From a virus, in the IMG/VR virus record IMGVR_UViG_3300000405_000064, positions 1-22,147 of that record: 22,147 bases of DNA; one strand, 5' to 3'. Below the pieces are notes generated by a model that did no database searches, had not been told where the DNA came from, and saw nothing but the letters and a program-made list of their open reading frames with translations. Positions 8,657-21,130 of the stretch are shown piece by piece. The position numbers were made by a program, and so were the translations under genes. How positions within the stretch are numbered: the stretch's first letter is position 1; each line of letters opens with the position of its first letter.

Positions 8657-8854
8657 ATGAAAACAAAAAAAGTAGCAGAACAAGCAGGATATACAATAAC
8701 CTTATCACTGATTTTAGTAGGTAGTATCCTTATAGGTATGGGAATTTATGATGTAGTGAAATACAGCTCTAACCTTGTACTAGGCTTTTGCCTTCTTGTG
8801 GGCGGGGTGGTCTTCGGGTTTGTAATGTTGTTCCTCTTTAGAGAAGATATATGA
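8657..8854 (+). CDS. Two-span small membrane protein
   Basis: 65 residues from the ATG at 8657, two nucleotides after the upstream stop. An alternative ATG at 8639 would add six residues (MEKPLI) and overlap the previous gene by 16 nt. I prefer 8657 because its GATT-ATG context matches neighbouring starts. Two strongly hydrophobic helices are visible, YTITLSLILVGSILIGMG and LVLGFCLLVGGVVFGFVMLF, joined by a short loop (YDVVKYSSN), with a basic N-terminus and an acidic C-terminus (REDI). This fits an inner-membrane protein such as a superinfection-exclusion or membrane-modifying accessory, but the role is unknown. Its TGA overlaps the next ATG (ATGA at 8851-8854). Confidence 0.7.
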   Translation: MKTKKVAEQAGYTITLSLILVGSILIGMGIYDVVKYSSNLVLGFCLLVGGVVFGFVMLFLFREDI

Positions 8855-9348
8855 AAGAGATAGATGGTGACATAGTAGAGCTATCAAGACGGGGCATGTT
8901 TGAAGTGATCTTACAAAACTGTAATTGCTTCTGCATACAAGGTAAAGGATTGGCTCCGATTATGAATAGGCATTTTAACACCTTATCATTCAAGATGGAA
9001 GCACAAAAATATAAAGGCTCCATGAATAAACTAGGTACAATAGACTATGAGCACCTATACTTGGAAGACGGTAAAAACTGGACAAAATACCCTGATGAAA
9101 TGGGAGAGTGGACTACCCATACCATGTATGTAGTTAACGCTTATGCTCAGTACAAGCTAGGTAAGAGTCTAGATTATGAAGCGTTGACTCTATGCCTTAG
9201 AAAAATAAACCACACCTTTAAAGGTAAAAAAATTGGTGTACCAAAAATTGGTGCAGGAATATCTGGAGGAAATTGGGAAAAGATTAGGACAATTATAGAG
9301 AAAGAACTAGTAGATTTGCAGGTAATAATCATAAACTACAAAAGATGA
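8851..9348 (+). CDS. Macrodomain protein (ADP-ribose-binding, Poa1p/TARG1-like)
   Basis: 165 residues covering a single macrodomain. Visible hallmarks are the N-terminal GDI (residues 6-8), the first ligand loop QNCNCFCIQGKGLAPIM (about 22-38, matching the 'CN...G.GIA' loop of this clade), and the second loop VPKIGAGISGGNWEKI (about 136-151, matching 'P.IG.GL.G..W'). These are the features of the ALC1/TARG1/Poa1p branch, which binds ADP-ribose and can hydrolyse ADP-ribose-1''-phosphate or remove ADP-ribose from proteins or DNA. The catalytic Asp of human TARG1 (GLD) is Ser here (GIS), closer to the Poa1p type. In phages such proteins may reverse host ADP-ribosylation defences or recycle NAD by-products; that is inference. 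It is translationally coupled on both sides by ATGA overlaps. Confidence 0.8.
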   Translation: MKEIDGDIVELSRRGMFEVILQNCNCFCIQGKGLAPIMNRHFNTLSFKMEAQKYKGSMNKLGTIDYEHLYLEDGKNWTKYPDEMGEWTTHTMYVVNAYAQYKLGKSLDYEALTLCLRKINHTFKGKKIGVPKIGAGISGGNWEKIRTIIEKELVDLQVIIINYKR

Positions 9349-19019: not shown

Positions 19020-19244
19020 ATGAAAACAGCAAAAATAACATTAGAGGATATAAAATCTGAATCTTGGGGTGAACTTGGCTACGATCTTTTTGGAAATTTA
19101 TTGGGGGATGATATGGACGAACAAAATACATACAACAAGATAAGTTCCATCTTTAAGTATGGGGAGATAGGTAATATTGAGATAGAGGTTGATGAAGAAC
19201 TAAATATAATAGGTGGCAGAATTATACCATTAAAAAAACAATAG
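19020..19244 (+). CDS. Small acidic hypothetical protein (74 aa)
   Basis: 74 residues, acidic, starting MKTAKITLEDIKSESWGEL. It has a short helical middle (DDMDEQNTYNKISSIFKYGE) and two C-terminal strands (NIEIEVDEEL, GGRIIPLKK). The start lies in the AATAATT-ATG context. Not recognised. Its place between an exonuclease and the helicase cluster suggests a replication-related accessory, by position only. Confidence 0.65.
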   Translation: MKTAKITLEDIKSESWGELGYDLFGNLLGDDMDEQNTYNKISSIFKYGEIGNIEIEVDEELNIIGGRIIPLKKQ

Positions 19245-19250
19245 ATAATA

Positions 19251-19841
19251 ATGTACATAAACTTCAAATTAGCAAAAGAGAAGGGGATCTCACCAAATGA
19301 GATAATGAACCTTCAAGTGATAAAGCAGATGAAATTAGAGAATGAGTTGGATAACGTTCTGGCTTCCACTCTCGAAGACAACATACTTGAACGTTTTGAG
19401 AACGAATCTTTGATAACACAGATAAAAGGTAAGGCAACAGACTCAGAACTCAGCAGGATAAGGCTATCGAAAAAAGGGATCAAACTACTGGATGATTTGG
19501 AGACGGCCAATGTAACAGAAGAGGACATTAAAATCTATGATTGGGTATCCTCATTTTATAGGTCACAGGACAAAACTCTGGGAAACCAAAAAAGGACGAA
19601 AAGTGGTCTGGCGCAGTTTAGGGTGGAGACATCAATTTCTAGAAATCATCTTGCATTTTTGTTTCAAACGTTCATGAACGATGATGAGCAGCTGGAATAT
19701 TCTCATAAGCTTGAAAACCTAATATTTTCTTCCAAAAACCTATATTCCAGAAAGTTTTCTTTAGATGAGTGCCGTCTACATAGCTACTACCTAAACAAAG
19801 AAGAGTGGTTTTTACATAAATTTGCCAATATAAAGAATTAA
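19251..19841 (+). CDS. Putative winged-helix replication protein (possible helicase loader/initiator)
   Basis: 196 residues. The N-terminus (MYINFKLAKEKGISPNEIM, then NLQVIKQMK) and the following ITQIKGK...SRIRLSKKGIKLLDDLE segment have the helix-turn-helix then 'LS.KG..L' wing pattern of winged-helix DNA-binding domains (about 1-85). The C-terminal half is helical (SSFYRSQDKTLGNQKRTKSG, SISRNHLAFLFQTF) and could bind the helicase. Proteins of this type directly upstream of DnaB-like helicases in phages often act as DnaD-like loaders or origin-binding initiators, which is the basis for the call. I see no ATPase motif, so it would not be a DnaC-type loader. The helicase promoter overlaps its last codons. 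Confidence 0.5.
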   Translation: MYINFKLAKEKGISPNEIMNLQVIKQMKLENELDNVLASTLEDNILERFENESLITQIKGKATDSELSRIRLSKKGIKLLDDLETANVTEEDIKIYDWVSSFYRSQDKTLGNQKRTKSGLAQFRVETSISRNHLAFLFQTFMNDDEQLEYSHKLENLIFSSKNLYSRKFSLDECRLHSYYLNKEEWFLHKFANIKN

Positions 19842-19885: not shown

Positions 19886-21130
19886 ATGAGTATAAAGAGC
19901 GCAGCACAATCCACAAAAGATGGATATAAGAGTATAAAAGAGGGACAACTGGGGGGATATAAGCCCATAAAAACCCGCTTTGAGCACTTGAACAAACATT
20001 CCCATGGAGGCTTGACAAAACAAAAAATATACACAATTGGTGCATTATCAGGATATGGAAAAAGCCATAATCTCAGACAAATAGAGACTGACATCTTTGA
20101 TGATAAACTAAACCCTACATCAAAGAAAGATGTAATACTGATAAAGGCAGATTTTGAACAGTCAAAAGAGGAGTACATTCTCACCAAAGTACATGAGAAA
20201 ACAAAAGTCCCTTTTGAAGAGTTACTATATAATAAACCTAATGAAGAGGTAAAGAAAGCCTTTAATGAAGTGTACTTAGAACTCACCTCTGACTACATAT
20301 TTGAGACTTTTGACACTTACACACCAGACAATTTTTATGAAGAGGTAAAGACATTCATAGAAACTTATACAAGAGAATTTACAGAAGAGGTGGTAGGCAA
20401 CACAGAAGAAATTGTAAAAGAAGGAAAAGTAATTCAAAAATCATATCCTATATATGCAAGAGACCCTTTATATAAGAAACAAATAGTATTAACTATAGAT
20501 AACATAAATTTAGTTGAGAAGAACGGAAACCAAGACGAGGGCACATCTATATCAAATCTAATAACTCACCTTATAAGGTTAAAAAGAGAAGTTAAAACAC
20601 TGACTATAATAATATTAGCCCAACTTAATAGGAGTTTGAAAGAGCGTATTAACCCTAAAGAACATTTTCCCAGAACAACAGACTTTTATTTTAGCTCAAA
20701 AATTGAGTTTGCATCGGATATACAGGTTGTCATCCATAACCCGTACTTATTGGGTCTATCAGAATATGGCGCTGTAAACTATGAGCGTTATAGTTATCTT
20801 TCAGACTACCTAGAAGAAAAAAACAAGTATGCGGTATTTCAGACAAAAGGTTTGACTTTTTGGCATTATGTAAAAGTAAGGTTAAAAAACTCTCTTAAAG
20901 ATTTTAAGGATATTCATGTAGAGAGAGTTTTTGATGTGAACGACAACGACACAGAAATAACTAAAGACAATTTCTCGATAAAAACCCCTACTTTTAACTC
21001 CTCTAGTAACCCCCAACCTAGACAGGCACAAGAAAACCCTTACAAAGACCTAAAGCCAAACAGTGATTTTAAAGCGATGTTCGATATAGAGGACAATGAA
21101 GATGAGGACAAAGACGGGATTCCTTTTTAG
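19886..21130 (+). CDS. DnaB-type replicative helicase (SF4) with SSB-like C-terminal tip
   Basis: 414 residues. The Walker A is ALSGYGKS (53-60, with Ala first as in DnaB). The Walker B is IVLTIDNINLV (D205). The following DnaB motif is LAQLNRSLKER (244-253), then FPRTTDFYFSSKIEFASD (261-278), matching the 'sD...S..ie..aD' block of RecA-fold helicases. The enzyme should form a hexamer on the lagging strand and unwind with ATP. It lacks the DnaB N-terminal primase-binding domain. The strand between Walker A and B carries an insertion of about 60 charged residues (110-190). The C-terminus (about 365-414) is disordered (NSSSNPQPRQAQENPYKD) and ends in DNEDEDKDGIPF, closely like the terminal docking peptide of SSB. 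The RNase HI gene follows. This gene is the core of the replication module. Confidence 0.85.
   Translation: MSIKSAAQSTKDGYKSIKEGQLGGYKPIKTRFEHLNKHSHGGLTKQKIYTIGALSGYGKSHNLRQIETDIFDDKLNPTSKKDVILIKADFEQSKEEYILTKVHEKTKVPFEELLYNKPNEEVKKAFNEVYLELTSDYIFETFDTYTPDNFYEEVKTFIETYTREFTEEVVGNTEEIVKEGKVIQKSYPIYARDPLYKKQIVLTIDNINLVEKNGNQDEGTSISNLITHLIRLKREVKTLTIIILAQLNRSLKERINPKEHFPRTTDFYFSSKIEFASDIQVVIHNPYLLGLSEYGAVNYERYSYLSDYLEEKNKYAVFQTKGLTFWHYVKVRLKNSLKDFKDIHVERVFDVNDNDTEITKDNFSIKTPTFNSSSNPQPRQAQENPYKDLKPNSDFKAMFDIEDNEDEDKDGIPF

Follow-up and report, generated by a model that had tools for sequence, protein, structure and literature searches.

A putative T7-like tail on a crAss-like phage helicase

The linear virus record IMGVR_UViG_3300000405_000064 is 22,309 bases long; the 22,147 bases analysed here, referred to below as the window, are a fragment of a crAss-like phage. 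Near the end of the window lies the gene of a DnaB-like replicative helicase whose C-terminus is a disordered, acidic tail finishing in Pro-Phe. This tail, and the replisome partner it may dock to, are the subject of our analysis. Among annotated phages, the longest matches are to the helicases of phi17:2, a Cellulophaga phage, and of its kin. This phage is a member of the crAss-like Epsilon group, with genomes of ~150 kb (PMC7886860). No relative of the window helicase was found in bacterial genomes.

The open reading frame (ORF) matches the Pfam family DnaB_C with an E-value of 1.9e-11 (44.3 bits, for a curated cut-off of 27) and PHROG 37407, a DnaB-like helicase family, with 8.5e-18. Foldseek searches with the predicted fold retrieved DnaB, G40P and the helicase domain of T7 gp4 (3bgw, 6.9e-14; 1e0j, 6.5e-11). 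A Walker A motif is located around G58-K59-S60, and G58 and K59 are invariant across our helicase alignment. The full-length DnaB equivalog TIGR00665, which includes the N-terminal domain, reached 27 bits for a cut-off of 385 and aligned over residues 201-285 only; since the full-length match fails, the protein is classified from these profiles as DnaB-like rather than as DnaB proper.

Is the end of this protein genuine? The last ~60 residues are predicted to be disordered, the final ones being DNEDEDKDGIPF. The C-terminus reads NPQPRQAQENPYKDLKPNSDFKAMFDIEDNEDEDKDGIPF, followed by TAG; directly before this TAG, the ORF ends in FDIEDNEDEDKDGIPF. In some crAss-like phages TAG is read as an amino acid, and read-through at this position would extend the protein by five residues (QLIER), so that the tip would no longer be terminal. 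We rejected this possibility, as TAG behaves as a stop in the window. In-frame TAG is absent from the long genes of the window, TAG likewise closes the gene at 19020-19244 immediately ahead of the following gene, whose start is conserved, and all five relatives with a Pro-Phe tail (L011, L012, L125, L065 and phi17:2) stop at TAA. From these three observations, the tip is the true C-terminus of the helicase. The initial annotation had described the helicase end as a disordered linker followed by an acidic stretch finishing in GIPF and a stop, a description borne out by the sequence, by the disorder in the AlphaFold model and by this examination of TAG. Ahead of the tip, an F-rich motif at the position of the short predicted helix (Table 1) is loosely conserved in alignments of the relatives (DAFDIP, FEAFGG, DFDDML, FDAFGQ).

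Table 1. Features of the helicase locus and candidate single-stranded DNA-binding proteins (SSBs). Positions refer to the window unless a contig label is given; pLDDT, predicted local distance difference test
Feature	Position	Strand	Evidence or remark
DnaB-like SF4 replicative helicase	19886..21130	+	414 aa (amino acids), stop TAG; Pfam DnaB_C, PHROG 37407, fold matches
Folded helicase core, residues 1-333	19886..20884	+	pLDDT mostly 75-93, lower in insertion around 161-200 (AlphaFold)
Disordered tail, residues 352-414: Asn/Pro/Gln-rich linker, then acidic tip	20939..21127	+	pLDDT about 34-47 (AlphaFold)
Short predicted helix DFKAM, residues 394-398, directly before the acidic tip	21065..21079	+	AlphaFold, low confidence
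Acidic SSB-like / T7 gp4-like tip DIEDNEDEDKDGIPF, residues 400-414	21083..21127	+	Sequence; terminal PF in five other Epsilon-group helicases
RNase HI, 146 aa	21185..21625	+	PF00075 2.6e-7; ATG 54 bases past helicase stop
Upstream neighbour, PHROG 32643	19251..19841	+	phrog_32643 4.8e-20; same gene order in phi17:2
Candidate SSB with SSB-like tip	L099:1876-2580	-	Hypothetical protein
Candidate SSB with SSB-like tip	L104:886-1698	-	Hypothetical protein
Candidate SSB with SSB-like tip	L133:6433-7110	-	Hypothetical protein
Candidate SSB with SSB-like tip	L116:46878-47498	-	Hypothetical protein

Conservation of the helicase C-terminus

Relatives of the helicase were collected from viral contigs by an alignment-based search; a single-protein scan with the window helicase gave none, and an eight-sequence alignment was too divergent for scanning. 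Six Epsilon-group helicases carry Pro-Phe-COOH after an acidic stretch: those of the window (KDGIPF), L011 (EEEAPPF), L012 (KDKDEPF), L125 (KKDDNAPPF), L065 (NEDTDSPF) and phi17:2 (gp198, AGO47731.1, EEEDDKPF). L011 is a close relative, 71% identical to the window helicase (75% in one alignment), and the six are spread over two sub-clades that are only ~24% identical. In the helicase tree, where caution about long branches applies, a 100/99 branch separates nine Epsilon helicases from the others, and the Pro-Phe ends fall into two sub-clades set apart by long branches; the tail may have been present in the Epsilon ancestor or have been gained twice. Two other helicases of the group (L013:3435-4562 and L014:3432-4562) have Pro-Phe one residue short of the terminus, an arrangement that would fit a capped or drifted tip. 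None of the 61 distinct sister-branch helicases, mostly from gut crAss phages, ends in Pro-Phe. Their mean length is 320 aa, versus 362-387 aa in the tabulated Epsilon relatives.

Among the 551 ORFs of ≥100 aa in four large Epsilon genomes (phi17:2, G003, G005 and G009), eight end in Pro-Phe, and seven of these are either the helicase or one SSB-like protein. Between the two sub-clades, most of the linker ahead of the tip cannot be aligned, yet Pro-Phe is retained, which points to selection. Could an acidic, disordered end simply have happened to stop at these two residues? The initial observation concerned a single sequence, and the L125 tail is weakly acidic (net -1 over the last 12 residues). 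However, Pro-Phe is kept in six helicases across two deep sub-clades, though as background only about one ORF in 550 has it, and coincidence is extremely improbable. Judged by this comparison, the Pro-Phe tip is more than a chance ending.

The initial annotation had likened the tail to the docking peptide of bacterial SSB, which ends in Ile-Pro-Phe, and had named variable C-termini among homologues as a result that would refute it. This refutation failed, as the acidic Pro-Phe is kept within the Epsilon group, but the Ile is not conserved: it occupies position -3 in the window helicase only, and the five others have P, E, P, S and K, respectively. The conserved end supports the docking reading in this broader form: very probably, the helicases dock through their acidic Pro-Phe end in a way comparable to the SSB tip.

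A second protein with the same tip

The same ending recurs on one other protein in each of the large Epsilon genomes: gp094 of phi17:2 (EEDDDLPF, L097:769-1497) and its counterparts in G005, the L065 phage (EEDDLPF), G009, the L125 phage (VDNSGLPF), and G003, the L013 phage (AEDDDSPF). It is also present in the gut crAss phage cr60_1, where gp18 ends in SEDNDLPF and the helicase has no tail. In phi17:2, recA is five genes from gp094, and the G003 candidate adjoins ORFs that by eye resemble RecA and an exonuclease. Relatives of these proteins are few, PDB searches and HHalign gave no fold for them, and no SSB of the PF00436 family was found in any phage tested. We infer that these second Pro-Phe-tipped proteins are probably the SSBs of the phages.

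Candidate partners of the tail

Which protein would the tail bind? The initial annotation knew of no described helicase with such a tail. This proved wrong, because T7 gp4 (ending STDWSNDTDF) and the T7 SSB, gp2.5 (ending DEDGDF), share an acidic tip with terminal Phe and the gp4 tip binds DNA polymerase. The gp4 tail contacts basic patches of gp5, the A-family DNA polymerase of T7, and processivity falls when the tail is lost (PMC12593628, PMC8835902, PMC8472574); both the terminal Phe and the acidity of the tail were described as essential for this contact (PMC12230644, PMC12593628). An A-family polymerase (PolA) is encoded in G003, G005, G009 and phi17:2. On the strength of the T7 precedent and of these polymerases, we favor, with a probability of about 0.5, the reading by analogy that the helicase carries a T7-like coupling tail, with the polymerase as its most likely partner and the SSB-like protein sharing the tip.

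In such a system, Pro-Phe-COOH would serve as the docking tip of a long, flexible acidic tail, as in T7 gp4. The helicase would assemble into a hexameric ring, from which up to six tails could search for a pocket, both basic and hydrophobic, on a partner in the replisome. This partner would most likely be the phage A-family DNA polymerase, kept at the fork while remaining able to exchange. The second phage protein, the probable SSB, would share the pocket or compete for it with the same tip, as T7 gp2.5 and gp4 do.

Several observations weigh against this coupling model. The exact Pro-Phe-COOH is not universal in the Epsilon group (L013 ends in TNDPFH, L014 in NNDPFQ and csAssE in EEQSLY), and the T7 tip itself lacks Pro. 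None of the candidate SSBs matches an SSB family, and their resemblance to bacterial SSB is confined to the tail; the AlphaFold model of the phi4:1 candidate is poor (pLDDT 37.6) and unusable. Finally, neither a polymerase nor an SSB was identified in the window, which is an incomplete fragment of 22 kb.

Alternatively, the tail may address host proteins. The pockets that receive the C-terminal peptide of bacterial SSB (SSB-Ct) recognize the acidic residues and the Pro together with the terminal Phe and its carboxylate group (PMC10164576, PMC5872125). The window tip GIPF has the acidic residues, the Pro and the terminal Phe that SSB partners read, and LPF or IPF is the end of most bacterial SSBs that we sampled (n=112, mostly Bacteroidota, 97 ending in PF). 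The tail might thus dock in the pockets of host PriA, RecQ, RecG, RecO, DnaG and Ung, which would be brought to the phage fork or kept from host SSB. However, position -3 is L, I, A, F, V or M in all 97 PF-ending SSBs, whereas it is P, E, S or K in five of the six PF-ending helicases: the acidic stretch, Pro at -2 and Phe at -1 are common to the six, and a hydrophobic residue at -3 is found in the window (Ile) and not in its relatives. Moreover, the canonical LPF tip is already borne by another protein of these phages, which could fill that role. We regard docking to host proteins as possible but unlikely. It is about equally doubtful that the tail is a true SSB-tip mimic redirecting host genome-maintenance proteins to the phage fork, with helicase and probable SSB both displaying the host hub peptide.

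RNase HI, whose gene is adjacent to that of the helicase in the window, was another partner put forward in the initial annotation, and E. coli RNase HI does bind the SSB tip (PMC11253446). The gene order does not hold: RNase HI is not beside the helicase of L011, L012 or L125, which all keep the tail, and a PF00075 scan of phi17:2 gave no match, though the phi17:2 helicase keeps the tail as well. For these reasons, we doubt that the helicase and RNase HI form a dedicated pair, and recruitment of the phage RNase HI encoded next is highly improbable.

Other phage proteins could also receive the tail, namely primase, RecA, UDG, an exonuclease or the product of the upstream gene, a possible loader. 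Primase, RecA and UDG are all encoded by phi17:2, and the PHROG 32643 gene adjoins the helicase gene in both phi17:2 and the window, with a similar gene at that place in L012. However, gut crAss phages keep such an upstream gene, annotated as ScpB-like or as a replisome organizer, without any tail on the helicase, and we consider a partner of this kind rather improbable.

The tail might instead act on the helicase itself, folding as a DNA mimic onto the DNA channel or the RecA fold, with the Phe as anchor, and being displaced on loading. Such self-regulation appears very unlikely, as the tail is of low confidence throughout in the AlphaFold monomer and the sister-branch helicases have no such tail.

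Comparison with known systems

The Epsilon tail is best interpreted as a novel version of the acidic helicase tail known from T7 gp4; its Pro-Phe end resembles the tip of bacterial SSB. Like gp4, the window protein is an SF4 helicase with a disordered acidic tail ending in Phe. The setting may also be alike: T7 has an A-family polymerase and an SSB, gp2.5, that shares the helicase tip, and the large Epsilon genomes examined encode PolA and one other Pro-Phe-tipped protein, the candidate SSB. Unlike gp4, the Epsilon tip contains Pro, and the helicase stands alone, whereas gp4 has a fused primase; binding to the polymerase is what we infer here. With bacterial SSB-Ct (DDDIPF or DDLPF) the tail shares the acidic residues, the penultimate Pro, the terminal Phe and the disordered linker, but the tip is found on a helicase instead of an OB-fold SSB and position -3 is unconstrained among the relatives. 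As to phi17:2 gp198, it has the helicase family, the acidic Pro-Phe end and the upstream gene in common with the window, and differs in its sequence (~24% identity) and in that RNase HI was not detected in phi17:2.

The helicases of gut crAss-like phages (Suoliviridae) have a homologous core, about 26-32% identical, but end soon after it, without an acidic Pro-Phe tail and in some cases with a clamp-box-like motif. Such endings (SLQLF, NLQLF, SLHLF, QQQLEIKI) were seen in 12 of the 61 distinct sister-branch helicases (L031, L032, L057, L082, L025, L053, L055, L056, L062, L073, L090 and L040), versus 0.4 expected from shuffled tails, a count that is uncorrected for relatedness and concerns a motif picked after seeing the tails. 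Docking to the sliding clamp in place of an acidic tail is a possible interpretation of these endings.

Two further genes of the window have counterparts elsewhere. A gene at the position of 19251-19841 is also conserved beside gut crAss helicases, where it is annotated as ScpB-like or as a replisome organizer. The ORF at 8851-9348 resembles by eye a macro-domain (ADP-ribose) protein (GVPKIGAGISGGNW); in phi17:2, the annotated macro-domain protein is gp002.

If the coupling model is correct, the Epsilon phages would have reached the T7 solution apparently independently, with a helicase and a probable SSB sharing an acidic, Phe-ended tip for one pocket at the fork. This would open a testable way into the replisome of these phages, which has received little study, and hypothetical proteins such as phi17:2 gp094 would be recognized as probable SSBs.
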